From positions 1 to 22,751 of the IMG/VR virus record IMGVR_UViG_3300006917_002601: DNA of 22,751 bases; one strand, given 5' to 3'. Source of the DNA: a virus. Shown in pieces: positions 12,437 through 20,568 of this stretch. The position numbers and the translations under genes were made by a program. Under the pieces are notes generated by a model. That model worked only from the letters and a program-made list of their open reading frames with translations, was not told the origin of the DNA and searched no databases. How positions within the stretch are numbered: the stretch's first letter is position 1; every line of letters starts with the position of its first letter.

Positions 12437-12912
12437 TTGGCTGGGCCTTGTATGCGGCATGGTGCGCGTTTTGCTGGCGGCTGCGCGGCGGGATGATCAG
12501 CCAGATCACGCTCCAGCGGTTCGGCTATGCGCTCTCGACGGGCGAGACAAGGATGGCTTGCGCGTTCCTCATGGCGCTGCCGCTTGCCATCTTCAATCCG
12601 TGGCTCCTATCGGTCGCTCCTGCGGCCTTCGCCGCCATGGCCCTCGGTTACTTCGACAAGTCGATGGGGCTCGAGGAACCGGGCCGCGACCATGCTTTCC
12701 TCGCTCTCTGGGGCGTCGCGGTGGCTGCCATCATGCTGGTGCCGATCGCGATCCTGCATCGCTCTCCGTTGATGCTGGCCTTCTCGGCTCCCGGCCTGCT
12801 GGTCGCTGCGGCCTACGACATCAACAAGCGTTTCGGTGGTCGCTGGACCGAGCGCGCCGAGTGGATGACGGGCGCGATCTTCGGAGGCATCCTGTGGGCA
12901 GCGGCGTCGTGA
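12433..12912 (+). CDS. Multi-pass membrane protein next to the lysis genes
   Basis: A 159-residue, strongly hydrophobic protein with about five membrane segments: residues 2-15 (weak), 40-60 (ACAFLMALPLAIF), 60-75, 87-108 (LALWGVAVAAIMLVPIAIL) and 110-127. Amphipathic loops (DKSMGLEEPGRDH, DINKRFGGRWTERAEW) separate them. It starts in ATGA overlap with the adhesin gene and precedes the holin genes. It may be a lysis accessory or a superinfection-exclusion protein, but I do not recognise the family. The function is open. Confidence 0.65.
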   Translation: MIGWALYAAWCAFCWRLRGGMISQITLQRFGYALSTGETRMACAFLMALPLAIFNPWLLSVAPAAFAAMALGYFDKSMGLEEPGRDHAFLALWGVAVAAIMLVPIAILHRSPLMLAFSAPGLLVAAAYDINKRFGGRWTERAEWMTGAIFGGILWAAAS

Positions 12913-12935
12913 ACGATGGATTTGGAGGACGAGAA

Positions 12936-13013
12936 ATGGCGGGTCGGAGCGACATGGCCCAGCCCCGAGGCACGGCGCGTCTCGCCGCCTGTCGCCTTGC
13001 ACACGCTACCTGA
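12936..13013 (+). CDS. Possible 25-residue small ORF before the XhlA-like gene
   Basis: ATG 12936 is preceded by a good Shine-Dalgarno (GGAGGA, six-base spacing) and reads 25 codons to TGA at 13011. The peptide starts MAGRSDMAQ, is basic, and has no clear membrane segment. It would fill an otherwise empty stretch of 129 bases between the membrane protein and the XhlA-like gene. Nothing supports a function. It may simply couple translation to the next gene, or be a chance ORF. Confidence 0.3.
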   Translation: MAGRSDMAQPRGTARLAACRLAHAT

Positions 13014-13041
13014 CCCCATCGCGCCGCCGAGGAGGACTGCC

Positions 13042-13278
13042 GTGCAAGAACAAGCCCTGTTGGATCACGCGCAGCAGATCGGTGCGCTGAAGTCCGAGGT
13101 CGCGCACATGACCGACCGCATCGAAGACATGGACAAGAAGCTCGACCAGATCATCGCGGCGGCGAATATGGGCAAGGGCGCGTGGCTCGCGGCGGTGAAG
13201 GCCGGCGGCATCATCGCAACGCTCGGGGCCGGCGCCGCGTGGCTCTGGGGCCACCTCCAGACCTTCATGCATCGCTGA
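13042..13278 (+). CDS. XhlA-like lysis protein (coiled coil plus one TM segment)
   Basis: With the GTG start at 13042 the product has 78 residues. Residues 5-40 form a coiled coil (HAQQIGALKSEVAHMTDRIEDMDKKLDQI), followed by one C-terminal TM helix (about 55-72, GGIIATLGAGAAWLWGHL) and a short basic end. This design matches haemolysin XhlA-type proteins, which work with holins at the inner membrane. GTG 13042 is chosen because AGGAGGAC lies five bases upstream; the in-frame ATG at 12916 would add a Pro/Arg-rich leader and has no Shine-Dalgarno. The gene is followed ten bases later by the 3TM holin, which supports a lysis role. Confidence 0.68.
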   Translation: MQEQALLDHAQQIGALKSEVAHMTDRIEDMDKKLDQIIAAANMGKGAWLAAVKAGGIIATLGAGAAWLWGHLQTFMHR

Positions 13279-13288
13279 GGAGACCGAC

Positions 13289-13696
13289 ATGGCACCCCTG
13301 CTCGCCGCCCTGCTGCCGATCTTCGGGTCGGTGATCGACAAGGTCATCCCCGACAGGGCCGCCGCCGACAGGGCGAAGCTCGAGGCGCAGGCGCAGCTCG
13401 TCGCCGCCGCCACCCAGGGCGCGCTCGCACAACTCGAGGTCAACAAAGTCGAGGCCGCGCACCAGAGCGTGTTCGTCGCGGGATGGCGACCGGCGATCGG
13501 CTGGGTGTGTGCGGCCGCGCTGGCCTACAGCTACATGCTCGTCCCGCTCGTCGGCTTCACGCTCGCCCTGCTCGGGCAGCCGGCGCCGCGCTGGCCGGTG
13601 CTGGACAACAACCTGTGGGAGCTAATGTTCGGCATGCTCGGCATGGGCGCGCTGCGGTCGTGGGACAAGGCGCAGGAGCGCAAGGGTGGCGGCTGA
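13289..13696 (+). CDS. Three-TM holin of the GTA_holin_3TM type
   Basis: A 135-residue protein. Residues 1-18 are hydrophobic (LLAALLPIFGSVIDKVIP). A charged helix follows (residues 22-65: DRAKLEAQAQLVAAATQGALAQLEVNKVEA), then HQSVFVAGWRPAIGWVCAAALAYSYM and LVPLVGFTLALLG, and a C-terminal helix (LWELMFGMLGMGALRSWDK). The GWRP-IGW motif before the second TM segment and ALRSWDKAQ at the end are typical of the holin family first named from gene transfer agents, where it permeabilises the inner membrane to release endolysin. It overlaps the endolysin start by 11 bases. TGAGGAGA lies five bases before ATG 13289. Confidence 0.85.
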   Translation: MAPLLAALLPIFGSVIDKVIPDRAAADRAKLEAQAQLVAAATQGALAQLEVNKVEAAHQSVFVAGWRPAIGWVCAAALAYSYMLVPLVGFTLALLGQPAPRWPVLDNNLWELMFGMLGMGALRSWDKAQERKGGG

Positions 13697-14201
13697 GAAC
13701 TGGGGCGAGGCTTTCCGCGCGCTGCTGCGCCACGAAGGCGGCTTCGTCAACCATCCCCGCGACCCCGGCGGCATGACCAACCTGGGTGTGACGCGGCGCG
13801 TCTGGGAGGAATGGACCAGCCATCCCGCGAACGAGGCCGACATGCGCGGCCTGACGCCGGGCATGGTCGAGCCGCTCTACCGCGAGCGCTACTGGCGCAA
13901 GGTTCGCGGCGACGAGCTGCTAGGGGGCGTGGACCTCGCGGTCTTCGATTGCGCCGTCAACAGCGGGCCGGGGCGCGCGGCGATGTTGCTGCAGCAGGCG
14001 ATCGGCGTCTGGCCGGATGGCGTGATCGGGCCAAAGACGATGGCGGCGATCAAGGCGGCGGATGCGAAGGCGACCGTGGATCGGTTCTGCGACCTGCGGC
14101 TGGCGTTCCTGCGCGGGCTGCCGACATGGCCGACGTTCGGTAATGGCTGGGAGCGGCGCGTCGAGGATGTGAGGCGGCAGGCGAAGGGGATGGTGGGCTG
14201 A
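13686..14201 (+). CDS. Endolysin, GH108 lysozyme-like with peptidoglycan-binding domain
   Basis: A 171-residue muramidase-like enzyme that cleaves peptidoglycan glycan strands. The N-terminal motif RHEGGFVNHPRDPGGMTNLGVT (residues 15-36) carries the probable catalytic Glu17 and is the signature of glycosyl hydrolase family 108. Residues about 80-125 (VDLAVFDCAVNSGPGRAAMLLQQAIGV, DGVIGPKTMAAI) form the partner peptidoglycan-binding domain. There is no signal peptide, so it depends on the holin encoded just upstream. The GTG start at 13686 has AGGAG seven bases upstream, inside the holin gene. It is the last gene of the rightward late module and faces the leftward early operon. Confidence 0.88.
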   Translation: MAAENWGEAFRALLRHEGGFVNHPRDPGGMTNLGVTRRVWEEWTSHPANEADMRGLTPGMVEPLYRERYWRKVRGDELLGGVDLAVFDCAVNSGPGRAAMLLQQAIGVWPDGVIGPKTMAAIKAADAKATVDRFCDLRLAFLRGLPTWPTFGNGWERRVEDVRRQAKGMVG

Positions 14202-14211
14202 CGCGCGGTCG

Positions 14212-14227
14212 CTACTCGCAAGAGTAG
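14212..14227. terminator. Small hairpin at the convergent late/early junction
   Basis: CTACTC and GAGTAG form a perfect 6-bp stem around GCAA, a GNRA tetraloop on the plus strand. It spans the last codons and stop of the minus-strand gene and begins ten bases after the endolysin stop. No T-run follows on either side, so intrinsic termination would be weak. It may be an RNA end-stabilising or a partial bidirectional terminator. It is the only structure in the 10-base gap between the convergent modules. Confidence 0.3.
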
Positions 14228-14757
14228 ACGCTCTCCGACCGCCGCAGCTGCAGCCATCGCGGCACGGTCGTGAAGGACTTGTCGCGGAACAGGACGCGGT
14301 TGGTCGGCTGGATGGTCAGGCGACCGCCATCGGTTCGCAGGAACATGAACTCCTTCGCCTGCGCCGGCGCGTGTGTGTAGGCGTCCCCGACCGGGATGGC
14401 CGTGAACAGGTATTCCGCGCCCAGCTCGGCGTCTGCCGCGCGCACGATCGCGCCGAGGCCGTCGAGGTAGTCGTAGGTGTGCAAGGAGAACTGCGAGCCA
14501 TAGCAGTCCCATTCCTGCGCGTCCTTGATCGTCCACGGATCGGGATCGGTGCAGAACGCCAGCGCGTGAGGCGGGAGGTCTCGGTAGACCGCGCCGCACT
14601 CGAGCAGCACCGTGCAGCCCCATGCGCGGCCAGGATGGCTGTGCAGGCCGAACCAGACCGCCGGGAACCACTCGTCGGCACCGAAGCCGATGAAGGCGCC
14701 GCAGACCGAAACGTATTGATGGCGTGGCAGGCTGCCGCTGGCCGTAAACAGCGTCAT
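14212..14757 (-). CDS. Hypothetical protein, last gene of the leftward early operon
   Basis: A 181-residue protein with no signal peptide or TM segment. It is rich in aromatic and acidic residues: GAFIGFGADEWFPAVWFGLHSHPGRAWG, AVYRDLPPHALAF, DPDPWTIKDAQEWDCYGSQFSLH and FLRTDGGRLTIQPTNRV. The pattern suggests a compact mixed alpha/beta enzyme or binding protein, but I recognise no family. ATG 14757 is chosen because it overlaps the stop of the 28-residue membrane peptide (ATGA) and no independent Shine-Dalgarno is seen; this pairing suggests the two are made together. Confidence 0.62.
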   Translation of the reverse strand: MTLFTASGSLPRHQYVSVCGAFIGFGADEWFPAVWFGLHSHPGRAWGCTVLLECGAVYRDLPPHALAFCTDPDPWTIKDAQEWDCYGSQFSLHTYDYLDGLGAIVRAADAELGAEYLFTAIPVGDAYTHAPAQAKEFMFLRTDGGRLTIQPTNRVLFRDKSFTTVPRWLQLRRSESVYSCE

Positions 14758-14840: not shown

Positions 14841-15001
14841 CGTCCCTCCTCCGCTTCCACGACCACCAGCCCGGCGGCCTCGATCGCGTTGACCACCCGA
14901 ATCAGGAACGCCAGCCGATGCCAATCGACCGGGCAGTCGGGATCGGGTGCGTACTGGTAGAGAGCGCGGAACGCGCGGCGCGCGGCGACGGCGGGGGTCA
15001 T
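14837..15001 (-). CDS. 54-residue hypothetical protein
   Basis: A small protein starting in ATGA overlap with the methyltransferase stop and ending in ATGA overlap with the 28-residue peptide. It contains ARRAFRALYQYAPDPDCPVDWHRLAFL followed by a helix (VVNAIEAAGLVVVEAEE). It is predicted to be helical and soluble. The only support is the perfect coupling on both sides and the codon-like composition. The family is unknown. Confidence 0.55.
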   Translation of the reverse strand: MTPAVAARRAFRALYQYAPDPDCPVDWHRLAFLIRVVNAIEAAGLVVVEAEEGR

Positions 15002-16851
15002 CGTTCGCTCTCCACCGCAGCGATCCGCTCGCCCAGATACCGCATCACCGGCACGGCCATGCTGTTGCCAAGCGCCTTGTACCGGGGCCCGTCGGGGCAC
15101 TCGCTTGCGGGCCTGTTGCGCCAGGGGATTGCGGTGTACCCATCCGGAAACCCTTGCAGGCGCTCGCATTCAACGGGGGTCAGGCGGCGGACTTGCATTC
15201 CCTGCGCAGCGATGTCGCCCGGAAAGCCGGTTGTCTGGTTCGCGCCGACAGACAGCGTGTCGGCGGTTTCGCACGCCGCCGTAGCCAGAAACGTCTGCTG
15301 CTTCATGCCCGGCTCGGCGGCCAGCGCGCCGGCGACGCCAACCTCACGCACCTCGTCGCGCTGGTTCTGGGTGAAGGCGACCGCCATCTGCCCGCCGCCG
15401 TTCGCGTGGCTGCTGGCGTGGCCCATCGCTCGCAAGGTCGGAGCGATGTCGGACGCTGCATCGGCGCCGTGGTCCTTGCAGGAGAACGCCACCGCCACCG
15501 CCACCATGTGCCCGTCAGTCTGATGACCTGGGCTCAACGTCTGAGCGCCGCCGCGGCTTGACCGCGCCATGAGCGGCGGAACGGGGTCTTCAATCGCCAC
15601 CGCCACCGTTGCGACGCCGCCCTTCGACCCGCAGCCCAGCGCGTGCGTGGAGCCATCGGTTGACGATATGGGATCTTGCGTCGGATGGAAGGCCACCGGC
15701 ACCGCAACGGCGTGGACATCATGGCCGTGCATCGCGTTCAACGTGAACGAGGGGCCGTCTTCCTGCGCGACCGCATTGCCTTTGCTGCCCTGCATGTTGA
15801 TCATCGGCACCGGCACCATGACGGATGGGCCAGACCCGGTCGTCGTGGCGCCGCCAGTTGACAGCGTGGCCGCAACATCGCCGGTCAGCGCGCCGTTGTA
15901 GTGGTCGACTGCCACCGGCACCAGCGGCGTCCCGCGCCCCGTGCCGTCTTTCGAGGCGTCGAAGCCCTCGCCGCGCAGGGTGTGGGCGACGAAGGTCTCG
16001 CTCTCAAAGTCAAGACGCCCATGCGGCCCGCCATACGCGTTGCACGCCGTAGCAACGTCGATCGGCCCCGCCGTTTTGTTGCCGCCATAGGCAGCGATCA
16101 GCGCGCCATCTAGCTCTGCGTCGGTGCCGAGGCCGCCACCGCCTCGAGTGCGCGCCGCAAGGATAGGGGCAGTTCTTTTCCGCGCCGCTCGGCGCGGCGC
16201 AGGATGCCAGCGCATGCTTTCGATGACAGGTAGAAGCGCGTCGGCAGCGGCCCAGTTTCCAGCACCTGCGCGAGCGAGCACGAAGACCCGGCGCCGTCGT
16301 TGCGCCAGGCCGAAGAACTGGGCGTCCAATACGCGCCATGCGGCGCATCGGCTGGGTCCAGAAACCACGCCCGCGTCGGTCCAGCCTCGTCCTCGCGGCG
16401 GCTCGAGGGCGGCATCGCCGCCGACCAGTCCGCCCAAGAGCGAGCCGAAGGCGTTGTCTTTGACGCTGAGTAGACCGGGCACGTTCTCATAGACGACCCA
16501 GCAGGGCGCGCGTCCATCAGCGCGTCGAACAGCGTCGATTGCATCGGCAATCCTCACATAGGTCAGGGTCAGGTTCCCGCGCGCGTCGGAGAGCGAACCG
16601 CGCAGGCCGGCGACGGAGAACGCTTGGCACGGTGGCCCGCCGACGAGGATGTCCGGCGCCTCGACCTCGCGCGCGAGGATGCGCTCGGGCAGCGCGGTCA
16701 TGTCGCCCAGGTTCTCGACGCCCGGCCAGCGCGCAGCGATCACCGCGCTCGGGAAGGCCTCAATCTCCGAGACCCATGCCGCGCGCCAGCCGAGGCCGTG
16801 CCACGCAGCCGACGCGGCCTCGATGCCAGAGCAGACGGAGCCGAACCTCAT
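14998..16851 (-). CDS. DNA (cytosine-5-)-methyltransferase with enlarged, repetitive variable region
   Basis: A 617-residue enzyme that would transfer a methyl group from S-adenosylmethionine to C5 of cytosine in DNA. Motif I is FGSVCSGIEAASAAW (residues 3-17) and motif IV is GGPPCQAFS with catalytic Cys75. Motif VI is ENVPG (122) and motif VIII is QRRRRVFVLA (184). A motif IX-like RRLTPVECERLQGFPDGYT lies near 555 and motif X is LGNSMAVPVMRYLG near 595. All catalytic blocks are present. The region between VIII and IX is about 350 residues, much longer than a usual target-recognition domain, and consists of about six degenerate units with (V/A)AVAF and TL-x-G elements. Likely jobs are protection of phage DNA or self-marking. 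ATG 16851 overlaps the upstream membrane-protein gene (ATGA). Confidence 0.9.
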   Translation of the reverse strand: MRFGSVCSGIEAASAAWHGLGWRAAWVSEIEAFPSAVIAARWPGVENLGDMTALPERILAREVEAPDILVGGPPCQAFSVAGLRGSLSDARGNLTLTYVRIADAIDAVRRADGRAPCWVVYENVPGLLSVKDNAFGSLLGGLVGGDAALEPPRGRGWTDAGVVSGPSRCAAWRVLDAQFFGLAQRRRRVFVLARAGAGNWAAADALLPVIESMRWHPAPRRAARKRTAPILAARTRGGGGLGTDAELDGALIAAYGGNKTAGPIDVATACNAYGGPHGRLDFESETFVAHTLRGEGFDASKDGTGRGTPLVPVAVDHYNGALTGDVAATLSTGGATTTGSGPSVMVPVPMINMQGSKGNAVAQEDGPSFTLNAMHGHDVHAVAVPVAFHPTQDPISSTDGSTHALGCGSKGGVATVAVAIEDPVPPLMARSSRGGAQTLSPGHQTDGHMVAVAVAFSCKDHGADAASDIAPTLRAMGHASSHANGGGQMAVAFTQNQRDEVREVGVAGALAAEPGMKQQTFLATAACETADTLSVGANQTTGFPGDIAAQGMQVRRLTPVECERLQGFPDGYTAIPWRNRPASECPDGPRYKALGNSMAVPVMRYLGERIAAVESER

Positions 16852-17009
16852 CGCAAACCCGCCAACACAATCACCACCGCGCCCGTCACGACGCCGAGCA
16901 GAGCGAAGGCGAACCAGTAGACCGCCGCTCCCTGCCACCGCCGATCCTCGTCCATCCAAGCCAGCACATCCCTGCTGGCCTGGACGCGGCGCTCCTGCTC
17001 CTCGGTCAT
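16848..17009 (-). CDS. Small single-TM protein upstream of the methyltransferase
   Basis: A 53-residue protein. The N-terminal half is charged (MTEEQERRVQASRDVLAWMDEDRRW). Residues about 31-51 form one TM helix (YWFAFALLGVVTGAVVIVLAGL). AGGAGG lies eight bases before ATG 17009; an ATG two codons earlier (17015) is only two bases from it and less likely. The stop overlaps the methyltransferase start (ATGA). It is the first gene after the pentamer array. The function is unknown. Confidence 0.6.
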   Translation of the reverse strand: MTEEQERRVQASRDVLAWMDEDRRWQGAAVYWFAFALLGVVTGAVVIVLAGLR

Positions 17010-17026
17010 TTCCATTTCCTCCTTTT

Positions 17027-17344
17027 GCCTGCCTCACCGGGCCTTACCGGGCCTCACCGGGCCGTGCCGCGCCATGCCCTGCCTGCCTCGTTGTGCCATG
17101 CCACGCCCCGCCTGCCTTGCGCCGCCGCGCCGTGCCCGACCGTGCCCTGCCTGCTTTGCTTCGCCCTGCTGCGCCACGCCGCGCCATGCCGCGCCATGCC
17201 TGCCATGCCTTGCCCTGCAAAGCCGCTCCTTGCCTCGCCCCGCCCTGCCTCGCCTGCCTTGCCGTGCCCTGACGTGCCGAGCCGTGCCTCGCCGCGCCCT
17301 GCCTGCCATGCCCCACCACACCAAGCCCAACCACGCCTTGCCTT
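17027..17344 (-). repeat. Degenerate pentanucleotide tandem array, (RNGGC)n
   Basis: Read on the minus strand, the array starts inside the TAA stop of the upstream gene and ends about ten bases before the Shine-Dalgarno of the next. It is a continuous run of about 65 units of the form RNGGC (A/G, any base, then GGC). Seven units are shortened to AGGC, occurring roughly every 6-11 units. About 58 pentamers and 7 tetramers give exactly 318 bases. The GGC core is kept in most units while the second base varies freely. Because T is almost always followed by GG, all three minus-strand frames lack stop codons. It fills the only intergenic gap over 150 bases in the leftward operon. Its function is unknown. 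Confidence 0.88.
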
Positions 17345-18441: not shown

Positions 18442-19383
18442 TCAACCAGCCAGATCCGCCACCCGGCGGCGGCTCTCCTCCATGATGCGCTCATGCGCCT
18501 CGGGCGACGCGGCGCTGATGTCGTCGAGGTTGCCGCGCTGCGAGAGCATCACGCGGTCGATGTCCTTGACGCTCGCCGCCTTGCGGATCGCCGCGACGAC
18601 GGCGCGGGCGCGCTCGGCCAGCTCGGGAGAAAGTGCGCCGGTCGGGGCCTCTGGTGAGGAGGCTGCGGAGGGGGAAGGCTCCGCATCCGACGCGGCCGGC
18701 GCGATGTTGTCGGCCTCTTGTTCCACGTTGTCGAGCAGGGCGTCCATCGCGGCGCTGACGGCGGCGAGGGGGGTGGAGGGCGGGGGCGTGATGTCGCGCA
18801 TGGTCACGCTCGACGGCGCGGCGAGGTCGTCGTCGGCGTGGATGCCCAGCACGGCCTCGGGCATGTAGCGCCGCGCCCACTCGCGCGCACCGCGATAGGC
18901 CAGCATCTGGTCGGTGTTCTTCTTCCACTGCTCGTTGCTGGTCTTCCAGCCGCCGACCGTGCCGACGACCGCGCGCGGCGCGACGTCACCGATCAGCTTG
19001 CCCAGCACCGTGACCTGGCGCTGGTCACCAGCGCCGCTGTATTGGTAGTCGAGGCTGCCCTGCAGCTTGCCCGAGGCGTTCACGACGGCGGCGATCAGCT
19101 TGCCCTCGTAGCCAAGCTTGCCCGACAGCACGTAGGTGTGCTGCGCGACGGCGAACGGGTCCATGCGCCAGCGGAAGGCCTGCGCCGCGACGAGGAAACA
19201 ATCGCCCAGCTTGCCCTCGCCGCGCAGATGCGCGGGCGCGAGCGAGGCGCTCGACATCAGCTTCGCGACGCGCTGGAGCTGGCCGAAGATGTCGCTGTCG
19301 AGGTAGACGGCGACGGGGTCCGAGAAGTCCACGGCGACGGCGCGCGGCGCGGTGGCGGTCGGAAGGTTGGTGACGTTGGTCAT
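18442..19383 (-). CDS. recT: RecT-family single-strand annealing protein
   Basis: A 313-residue protein. The core (about residues 30-185) has the RecT pattern: IFGQLQRVAKLMSSASLAPAHLRG, DCFLVAAQAFRWRMDPFAVAQHTYVLSGKLGYEGKLIAAVVN and GGWKTSNEQWKKNTDQMLAYRGAREWARRYMPEAVLGI. RecT proteins coat ssDNA and anneal complementary strands during phage recombination. An acidic/Pro-rich linker (186-250) and a helical C-terminal domain (ELAERARAVVAAIRKAASV to the end) follow. It starts in ATGA overlap with the exonuclease gene, giving a classic RecE/RecT pair. An SD-like AGGGAG lies eight bases upstream of ATG 19383. The next gene is 14 bases away. Confidence 0.9.
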   Translation of the reverse strand: MTNVTNLPTATAPRAVAVDFSDPVAVYLDSDIFGQLQRVAKLMSSASLAPAHLRGEGKLGDCFLVAAQAFRWRMDPFAVAQHTYVLSGKLGYEGKLIAAVVNASGKLQGSLDYQYSGAGDQRQVTVLGKLIGDVAPRAVVGTVGGWKTSNEQWKKNTDQMLAYRGAREWARRYMPEAVLGIHADDDLAAPSSVTMRDITPPPSTPLAAVSAAMDALLDNVEQEADNIAPAASDAEPSPSAASSPEAPTGALSPELAERARAVVAAIRKAASVKDIDRVMLSQRGNLDDISAASPEAHERIMEESRRRVADLAG

Positions 19384-20249
19384 TTCGTATACTCCCTCTG
19401 GATGGATGCGTTGATCTCGTTGGCGGCCCACTGCGGCAGGCCGATTTCGACTACACCCGTGGTGTAACCCGTCCAGCTATCATCCGCAACGCTTTTCGCG
19501 AAGCGGCGCAGGATCTGGCGCAGCTGCTGGTCGGCGGCGCTCGCGGCGTCGGCGGACAGGGCGGCGACGTAGCCGAGGTGGGGCTCGTCGTTGCCGACGA
19601 CCGCGAAGCAATGCGTCGGGCGCTGGATGCCGAGCGTCGAGGCGACCAGCCGAAACATCGCGTCACCGAGGTCGTACCTGAGATTGGCGGCGGTCTTGCG
19701 CCAGGAGTTCGGCGCGGGCGACGCGGTGGTCTTCAGGTTCACCGCCAGCCCGGCGCGCGAGATGTAGAGGTCGGGTCGGCACAGCAGCGTGAGCCCGGTT
19801 TCCTCGTCCTTCGCGACCATCGTCACCTCGGCGCGACCGCCGGCCTCGAGCAAGCGGCGGGCGTCGGCGTTGCGCATGAGGCCTTCGCGCATTCCGACGA
19901 TCCGCATGTGGTCGGAGAAGCTGACGATCTGTCGATCGCCCTGTTCTTCGCGCCACGCCTTGCCCTCGCGGGTCGAGAGATTGAGCCCCTCGGGCTTGAC
20001 CGAGAAGCGCGCATGGAAGGCCTCGGCGCCCTCCAGGATGTAGCAGTGCGCGGCGGTCCCCAGCGCCATCGACGCGCTCGGCTCGCGGTGGACACGGGCC
20101 GGGTTGCCGCGCCAGAAGGCGTGAGCGTGGGCCGGGCATTCGGTCTCGTAGGCGACGAGGTCGCTGCCGCTGACCGCCGGAGCCGCGAAGGCCTCGGCGC
20201 TCAGGTACGCCTCGAACGAGACGTCGTTGTGGATGCCGTCGTTGATCAC
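19380..20249 (-). CDS. Exonuclease VIII-like PD-(D/E)XK protein with altered catalytic motif
   Basis: A 289-residue protein. SFEAYLSAEAF and SGSDLVAYETECPAHAHAF come near the N-terminus, and SMALGTAAHCYILE (60-73) holds the conserved His68. The nuclease block (139-175) is AEVTM with Glu141, CRPDLYISRAGLAVNLKTT with Asp160 and Lys173. The residue expected to be the second acid of the PD-(D/E)XK motif is Asn171. The nearest relatives are RecE/exonuclease VIII-type enzymes that resect dsDNA to make 3' ssDNA for RecT. The GTG start at 20249 has AGGGAG seven bases upstream and overlaps the previous stop (GTGA); no better ATG exists near the conserved start. Confidence 0.8.
   Translation of the reverse strand: MINDGIHNDVSFEAYLSAEAFAAPAVSGSDLVAYETECPAHAHAFWRGNPARVHREPSASMALGTAAHCYILEGAEAFHARFSVKPEGLNLSTREGKAWREEQGDRQIVSFSDHMRIVGMREGLMRNADARRLLEAGGRAEVTMVAKDEETGLTLLCRPDLYISRAGLAVNLKTTASPAPNSWRKTAANLRYDLGDAMFRLVASTLGIQRPTHCFAVVGNDEPHLGYVAALSADAASAADQQLRQILRRFAKSVADDSWTGYTTGVVEIGLPQWAANEINASIQREYTK
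19452..19466. promoter_or_regulatory. Third, perfect copy of the operator palindrome inside the exonuclease gene
   Basis: TACACC-CGT-GGTGTA is a perfect 6-3-6 palindrome with the same arms as O1 and O2. It lies about 70 bases upstream of the recT start, in coding sequence. It could be an intra-operon operator, a roadblock, or a coincidence. The match to the consensus is better than either promoter site. Confidence 0.3.
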
Positions 20250-20392
20250 TTGTCGATCTCCCTCTTCATCTGCCTGTGGACCCAGCCGCGCAGGGCCGCG
20301 AGGCGGCTCGCCTTCTTGCCGCGCGGGGCGTGGGCCGCGCGCTTGATCATGCTGCGGTAGACCCGCAGCAGCTTGCGCTTCTCGGTGGTCAT
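20246..20392 (-). CDS. Small basic protein before the exonuclease
   Basis: A 48-residue, highly basic protein (MTTEKRKLLRVYRSMIKRA, then HAPRGKKASRLAALRGWVHRQMKREIDK). Its 15 or so Lys/Arg residues suggest DNA or RNA binding. The start overlaps the previous stop (ATGA), and its TGA overlaps the GTG start of the exonuclease gene. The perfect coupling on both sides is the main evidence that it is real. The function is unknown. Confidence 0.6.
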   Translation of the reverse strand: MTTEKRKLLRVYRSMIKRAAHAPRGKKASRLAALRGWVHRQMKREIDK

Positions 20393-20568
20393 CGGTTGCC
20401 CTCCAGTTTGGCAAGATCACGCTCCAGCTCCGCGATCCGCTGATGCGCGAGCAGGTAGTCTAGACTGTGGGGATCAAGGTCGCGGGCCAGCTCGACCCGC
20501 AGGGCGATGCGAGCGCGCAGGACGCCGGGCGTCTGCGGGATCGCGGTGGCGGCGGGAAGGCGCTTCAT
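20389..20568 (-). CDS. 59-residue helical hypothetical protein
   Basis: ATG 20568 overlaps the TGA of the preceding 21-residue peptide gene. The peptide (MKRLPAATAIPQTPGVLRARIALRVELARDLDPHSLDYLLAHQ, then IAELERDLAKLEGNR) is a basic helix followed by a coiled-coil-like C-terminus. The stop overlaps the next start (ATGA). It is probably a small dimeric regulator or subunit, but no family is recognised. Confidence 0.55.
   Translation of the reverse strand: MKRLPAATAIPQTPGVLRARIALRVELARDLDPHSLDYLLAHQRIAELERDLAKLEGNR

Follow-up and report, generated by a model that had tools for sequence, protein, structure and literature searches.

What is the function of the long variable stretch that separates two conserved halves of a phage DNA methyltransferase? 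The question is raised by a 22,751-nucleotide (nt) stretch of viral DNA (IMG/VR record IMGVR_UViG_3300006917_002601; the window hereafter), the minus strand of which carries an intact open reading frame (ORF) of 617 amino acids (aa), from an ATG at 16851 to a stop at 14998. This start is supported by an ATGA overlap between the ATG and the stop of a 55-aa ORF that lies upstream. The product, P0001, matches PF00145 (E = 3.3e-35) and belongs to phrog_116/Dmt, with a full-length core match over residues 1-614 (E = 2.7e-78). It carries motifs I, IV (PCQ), VI (ENV), VIII, IX and X, the catalytic P, C, E-N-V, Q-R-R and G-N are invariant in an alignment of 27 sequences (A3), and its best relative by sequence in the PDB is M.HhaI. 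Judged from its sequence, P0001 is a C5-cytosine DNA methyltransferase; the coordinates, strand and motifs given in an earlier, sequence-only reading of this DNA were correct. Motif VIII (residues 184-193) and motif IX (residues 555-569) enclose a variable region of 361 aa (residues 194-554), close to the 350 residues or so estimated in that reading, which had wrongly labelled the region as low-complexity.

We propose that P0001 is probably a multispecific orphan C5 methyltransferase with about ten target-recognition domains (TRDs) in tandem, which serves in anti-restriction and has drawn its cassettes from a common pool. We favour this interpretation because the cassettes occupy the TRD slot between motifs VIII and IX, because cassette profiles match units of M.SPbeta, because the cassettes are modular, loosely tied to the core, gained and lost at the DNA level, conserved and non-redundant, and because another phage family (RR1-A, Pyei1) likewise has an array as its variable region.

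Ten cassettes follow each other nearly end to end in P0001, in the order PTISARP-GGNNT-GEGFD-YNGALTG-MINMQG-HPTQDP-DPVPPL-CKDHG-AQN-SVGANQT (family names were coined in the present analysis). They are 20-39 residues long and together make up 85% of the variable region. Each was found again in place (E = 3e-7 to 2e-28; Table 1) by leave-out profiles trained without L004, a copy 100% identical to the window gene, so that the 'about six' units counted earlier were too few. The number is the maximum among 207 variable regions, where L071 ties with it. Aligned with itself, the variable region scores 68, compared to 44.8 +/- 8.2 for 60 shuffled versions (maximum 62); the self-alignment put forward as a check in the sequence-only reading thus lies above chance, by a modest margin that is expected if the units have a common grammar and not a common sequence. 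In 22 full-length cassettes this grammar consists of a hydrophobic strand (VAF), a variable loop, x-T-L-x-A, a loop and a hydrophobic strand, with a single nearly invariant column, a Leu, across the 22 families. Both the (V/A)AVAF and the TL-x-G blocks described earlier are present, the former as cassette seams and the latter as the common core (TL), and the tandem units, real as they are, represent distinct conserved families and not degenerate repeats. An origin of the repeats in low-complexity sequence or slippage is ruled out, every unit being a recognisable family. Within the gene, Tandem Repeats Finder returned only two short arrays, of 19 and 27 nt.

The families were defined on relatives from scans of IMG/VR and GTDB, which gave 256 loci, or 253 after exclusion of three that are the window's own; two scans for relatives comprised the best 80 of 171 and the best 80 of at least 597. 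Retrieval used short peptides from three query proteins, some of them within cassettes, and cassette frequencies are therefore biased. Both core halves were present in 228 ORFs, with 207 distinct variable regions (median 222 aa); ORFs that lack one half owing to a frameshift, an insertion or a contig end were not counted. The first 55 variable regions were visibly mosaics of common short pieces. Gapped BLAST ran cassettes together, its long alignments having a median length of 136 aa at 36% identity, and profiles were used instead; the zero intra-protein BLAST matches may be an artefact, and some segments from an initial automatic family search covered two cassettes. With 44 profile families, from seeds picked by eye, we recorded 954 non-overlapping cassette matches across the 207 regions and none in shuffled or reversed copies. 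Cassettes cover 57% of the variable-region residues and leave 43% uncovered, and in regions under 500 aa each added cassette goes with about 33 aa of additional length (r = 0.76). Two of the families, HPTQDP and HGTQDPC, are close kin. Long non-cassette stretches, perhaps an intron, intein or homing insert, were seen in variable regions of 769 and 586 residues (L064:2992-5982 and L067:2935-5502), and at L042:2995-5688 the catalytic PCQ motif is interrupted by a long, intein-like insert, which opens with a Cys and closes with HN-C.

The position of the cassettes matches that of the tandem units in the multispecific Bacillus type, and we assign them as putative TRDs by position and sequence. For the comparison we used M.SPbeta (mtbP of SPbeta), which we take to be multispecific for discrete targets and for which we likewise assume the locations of the TRDs. 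Single-family profiles match it at 347-372 (DMRQAS, E = 2.2e-5) and 357-372 (IPGNWIG, E = 3.5e-4), while 200 shuffles and one reversal of M.SPbeta, searched with all 44 profiles, yielded no match with an E value of 1e-2 or less. A generic profile of 22 cassettes marks units at 308-322 (5.8 bits) and 346-372 (8.4 bits; shuffled 95% limit 0). By BLAST, CKDHG of P0001 pairs with the first M.SPbeta unit in an alignment that continues through motifs IX-X (E = 3e-6), and MINMQG pairs with the second (E = 0.32). Residues 290-322 of M.SPbeta align weakly (2.2 bits) with residues 227-257 of M.HhaI, presumably its recognition region, which end in RIYSTRGIAITLSAYGGG; the stretch in this alignment (TLSAYGGG) displays a TL-x-x-x-G grammar. 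In profile A2 the residues with which AQN closes (KQQTYLAQ) pair with M.HhaI residues from 261 onwards, immediately ahead of motif IX. The suggestion in the sequence-only reading that the units resemble tandem TRDs is in agreement with these results, in that they fill the TRD slot and cassette-only profiles match two M.SPbeta units, one clearly (347-372) and one weakly (305-322).

Cassette content is loosely tied to the catalytic core. Among 207 proteins there are 193 different ordered arrays, and co-occurring family pairs are found in both orders in 98 of 445 cases (80 of 214 for pairs present in at least three proteins); when each 80% core cluster is represented by a single protein (89 in all), the counts become 59 of 318 and 39 of 99. 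The mean Jaccard index of the cassette sets is 0.055-0.163 in bins of N-core identity below 85%, 0.317 at 85-95% (245 pairs) and 0.278 at 95% or above (122 pairs, of which 25 share no cassette and five have identical sets), and different sets occur in 88 pairs whose N-cores share 96% identity or more. On a core tree (FastTree, 137 proteins), on which 16 families were tested against 60 label shuffles, four change as often as shuffled labels, as if dealt randomly: DTTQIT (19 holders, 18 changes, shuffled mean 18.2), GQGGAEI (13, 13, 12.7), HPTQDP (12, 11, 11.7) and MERGRDG (9, 9, 8.8).

Alignments of ten close pairs display such changes at the DNA level. L249 and L245 differ by the presence of one GEGFD cassette, 93 nt in frame, with flanks that are 96.6% and 88.7% identical, and between L187 and L195 two other cassettes take the place of the last one (flanks 92.8% and 95.4%). 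A single gapped alignment (85%) joins L004, the window's copy, and L006 as far as GEGFD inclusive, across a second cassette that differs; beyond GEGFD the CKDHG cassette, in a different array place, is all that aligns (93.5%) before the tail. L139 and L170 gave a single gapped alignment with no clean edge. In these close pairs the natural in-frame gains and losses of cassettes keep the genes open. In the window gene the DNA of the VAVA seams is nearly identical over 12 nt at eight sites in the variable region, seven of which are centred at most 9 nt from a cassette start, compared to 0.74 expected after codon shuffling (maximum 5 in 300 shuffles), and this DNA possibly acts as microhomology for recombination. 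The sequence-only reading had suggested that the repeats could shuffle specificity by recombination. The units are indeed reshuffled, for the most part through the transfer of entire cassettes from phage to phage; intragenic recombination between repeats is weakly supported as the main route, since the direct repeats at the seams in this gene measure just 12 nt (exact) and 19 nt (79%).

The cassettes are both inherited vertically and mobile, with limits to the freedom and to the randomness of their exchange. PTISARP, VTNGPPF, SHWDDL and NQEVFS nearly always open the array, and other families tend to close it, such as RGREGG, MERGRDG and AQN (mean relative positions 0.93, 0.84 and 0.80). Five of the eight listed genome-locus arrays, from Clostridia (L087, L089, L090, L092 and L096), share an order that varies little, LNDQGG-CTEHSAK-RMGTGGG-IRSGCEG-IYGGNKR-AQN-IPGNWIG, in contrast to arrays elsewhere, which are more shuffled.

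In protein pairs with N-cores less than 60% identical, cassettes of the same family (42 families) have a mean aa identity of 61%, a value inflated by the similarity cut-off that defines the families, compared to 47% for the core. The values range from 89% (DPVPPL) to 40% (YNGALTG), with 37% identity at third codon positions, and in a local alignment the aligned part of the core reaches 58%. On this basis cassettes and core are conserved to about the same degree. Third-position identity at identical fourfold residues is 0.334 in cassettes and 0.372 in the core, near saturation (0.261 from composition alone); conserved residues combined with near-saturated synonymous sites indicate that the cassettes are old and under purifying selection. 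Conservation also bears on the idea that a single TRD works, probably the last cassette before motif IX, while the rest is inactive, decaying or spacer. The families that mostly stand last would fit that arrangement, as would the relative L054, which has little more than one cassette, but decaying spacers would diverge, unlike the mid-array GEGFD (position 0.46), which is 76% conserved where the mostly-last RGREGG is 66% conserved (third positions 43% and 37%); GEYVDDG (0.50) is lower, at 54%. Duplicates are moreover rare within arrays, and we consider a single working TRD improbable. Ten within-protein duplicates were observed, whereas 78.3 +/- 7.1 are expected under random dealing and 61-68 under position-preserving dealing; in 87 non-redundant proteins there are seven against 38.6 +/- 5.1 expected. 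Either a second copy brings no benefit, as would be the case if each cassette reads a different target, or recombination removes direct repeats.

Several observations weigh against the multi-TRD interpretation, including the inflated within-family identity. Ten of the 16 families change less on the core tree than in all 60 shuffles (for example GEGFD, 24 changes against a shuffled mean of 46.1; CKDHG, 31 against 42.9; AQN, 23 against 38.7; IRSGCEG, 3 against 8.8; LNDQGG, 4 against 9.8), and IQAGAL and RGREGG match the lowest shuffle; this phylogenetic signal indicates that cassettes also descend vertically. With single-family profiles one M.SPbeta unit alone is significant, the matches at 305-320 (CKDHG, CTEHSAK, GQGGAEI and RMGTGGG) having E values of 1.3-5.6, and that of MINMQG at 356-371 an E value of 1.3. 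The generic profile found no unit in P1 Dmt or in ZF40 gp27, the latter also being without a recognised cassette at E 1e-2 with the 44 profiles, and against PDB sequences it gave eight chance matches and no methyltransferase up to E 10. The short cassettes PTISARP, GEGFD and SVGANQT start at or near TL, have no preceding loop and may be half-modules. Phi2LM21_p23, a homologue from the other array family, reportedly gave no protection in Escherichia coli (PMC5537653), so that failure in a foreign host is possible. In AlphaFold2 models the core is folded and the array is not (predicted local distance difference test, pLDDT, about 27-45), and the same holds for the array region of L054. An unfolded array would suit a region that binds a protein partner or regulates the enzyme and reads no DNA. 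That role is at odds with the TRD position and the M.SPbeta match, and a common protein partner is unlikely for AQN, which is found both in Clostridia arrays and in Pseudomonas phage TC7; we regard it as very improbable.

If the cassettes are TRDs in tandem, a single catalytic core (motifs I-VIII and IX-X) would serve about ten of them. Each cassette would most likely dock in turn at the TRD position beside the core and direct methylation at its own short target, so that the phage DNA would be protected from many restriction enzymes at once. Cassettes would be gained, lost and exchanged by phages as separate DNA modules, out of a pool common across bacterial phyla, perhaps with help from the shared VAVA seams and from phage annealing recombinases, for example the RecT encoded nearby.

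Single-TRD type II C5 methyltransferases such as M.HhaI have one TRD and one target. P0001 is like M.HhaI in its core fold, and its cassette layout is that of the M.HhaI recognition region; the best structural match of the L054 model (Foldseek) is M.HhaI as well (E = 2.8e-18, core fold). The multispecific Bacillus phage enzymes have two to a few TRDs. Like these enzymes (SPR, SPbeta, phi3T, rho11s and H2), whose tandem TRDs are described in three reports that cite the original work (PMC8936443, PMC5923457, PMC12707154), P0001 combines one C5 core with tandem TRD-like units between motifs VIII and IX; unlike them, the present family has up to ten cassettes and a pool of 44 recognised families in phages of several phyla. 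The core of P0001 is not closely related to theirs (24% identity to M.SPbeta over 226 aligned columns), and P0001 represents a separate branch, which may work like them.

The RR1-A / phi2LM21 / Pyei1 / JCM7686_0772 group consists of large phage 5-methylcytosine (m5C) methyltransferases whose T-(I/V)-x-A units form a long array. The reported homologues in this group include RR1-A (PMC5537653) and Pyei1_p05 (about 69% identical, PMC6536676), and members are reported to have relaxed specificity (PMC3925955, PMC5537653, PMC6536676). RR1-A has weak core similarity to P0001 and no match from individual cassette profiles, and the generic profile finds two units each in the variable regions of RR1-A and Pyei1; by sequence comparison the group is a second, separate array family (L267:41579-43672 in Rhizobium phage RR1-A; L268:926-2947 in Paracoccus phage Pyei1). 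Pectobacterium phage ZF40 has both a cassette-less member, gp27 (L262:1468-2502), and an RR1-A-type methyltransferase (12705-14594 of the ZF40 record). The relaxed specificity reported for this other array-bearing family (PMC3925955) would also fit an array that acts as a whole, as one extended, loosely discriminating DNA-binding surface, with many cytosines methylated in a degenerate context. A single loose surface leaves unexplained the separately conserved families, the single-cassette moves, the rare duplication and the M.SPbeta unit matches, and we consider it unlikely, if the least unlikely of the alternatives to tandem TRDs.

Searches with P0001 matched 674 of 50,697 phage records, at least through the methyltransferase core. 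Of eight named relatives, picked from 60 matches listed of the 674, seven have at least two cassettes (E at most 1e-2): JK004 has 3, CobraSix 4, NV1.1.1 4, Chantilly 5, TC7 5, P1 Dmt 2 and BL94 2. CKDHG is common to TC7, CobraSix and NV1.1.1 as well as to L004 and L006. The hosts of the picked relatives are several Pseudomonadota and Akkermansia, and the array-bearing genome loci include Clostridia. The dmt gene of P1 (L259:1486-3750), a tblastn relative, carries the cassettes GEYVDDG (E = 7e-17) and HETGQGF (E = 5e-4). Its record describes a bifunctional protein with Dam activity and C5 methylation only 'perhaps', for which the two cassettes are candidate readers; unlike Dmt, the window protein has ten cassettes and no fusion. 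A search of E. coli genomes with one relative matched 85 of 5,426, and 50 of the 60 matches listed cover the fused adenine-methyltransferase part only.

We speculate, with a confidence that falls a little short of even, that phages across phyla keep a pool of dozens of TRD cassettes, each family with a fixed specificity, and recombine them at the seams into arrays of up to ten. A single methyltransferase gene would then write about ten methylation motifs in a set open to change, which would make a methylome readable from its array and anti-restriction combinatorial and quickly retunable. A search of the open-access literature, preprints excluded, found no paper on a shared cassette pool of this kind. 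If families hold fixed specificities, a few dozen expression tests would suffice to decode methylation patterns in many phages and would supply a list of natural parts from which programmable cytosine methyltransferases could be engineered. The arms race between phages and restriction would become directly testable, by asking whether an array matches the restriction enzymes of the hosts met, and phage m5C methyltransferases reported with relaxed specificity would have a concrete explanation.

Table 1. Features of the methyltransferase locus, in window coordinates; residues are those of P0001
Feature	Residues	Position	Strand	Evidence or remarks
C5-cytosine DNA methyltransferase coding sequence, 617 aa (P0001)		14998..16851	-	translation; PF00145; phrog_116
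N-terminal catalytic core, motifs I-VIII (GGPPCQAFS 71-79, ENV 122-124, QRRRRVFVLA 184-193)	1-193	16273..16851	-	motifs; aligns with M.HhaI
Cassette 1, PTISARP	228-252	16096..16170	-	leave-out E 4e-12
Cassette 2, GGNNT	256-288	15988..16086	-	leave-out E 4e-16
Cassette 3, GEGFD	288-313	15913..15990	-	leave-out E 3e-18
Cassette 4, YNGALTG	313-342	15826..15915	-	leave-out E 3e-7 over residues 313-333
Cassette 5, MINMQG	348-383	15703..15810	-	leave-out E 2e-28, from two other sequences; also in L007, L009
Cassette 6, HPTQDP	387-417	15601..15693	-	leave-out E 7e-18
Cassette 7, DPVPPL	418-452	15496..15600	-	leave-out E 2e-27, from two other sequences; also in L034, L042
Cassette 8, CKDHG	454-492	15376..15492	-	leave-out E 9e-25; 93.5% DNA identity to L006 CKDHG at a different array position
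Cassette 9, AQN	491-522	15286..15381	-	leave-out E 2e-21
Cassette 10, SVGANQT	529-548	15208..15267	-	leave-out E 7e-10
C-terminal catalytic core, motifs IX-X	555-617	15001..15189	-	RRLTPVECERLQGFP and GNSM
Small ORF, 55 aa, hydrophobic C-terminal stretch; stop overlaps methyltransferase ATG		16848..17015	-	
RecT-like single-strand annealing protein, upstream, same strand as methyltransferase		18442..19383	-	phrog_561 E 2.3e-50
Exonuclease VIII-like gene, upstream, same strand; stop-to-stop frame, start codon unsettled		19380..20459	-	phrog_412 E 1.1e-57

The small ORF upstream of the methyltransferase had no match in PHROG. Just upstream of both, at 17031-17334 of the window, lie GC-rich tandem repeats with periods of 5 to 54 nt, within which chance-looking ORFs are present on both strands.

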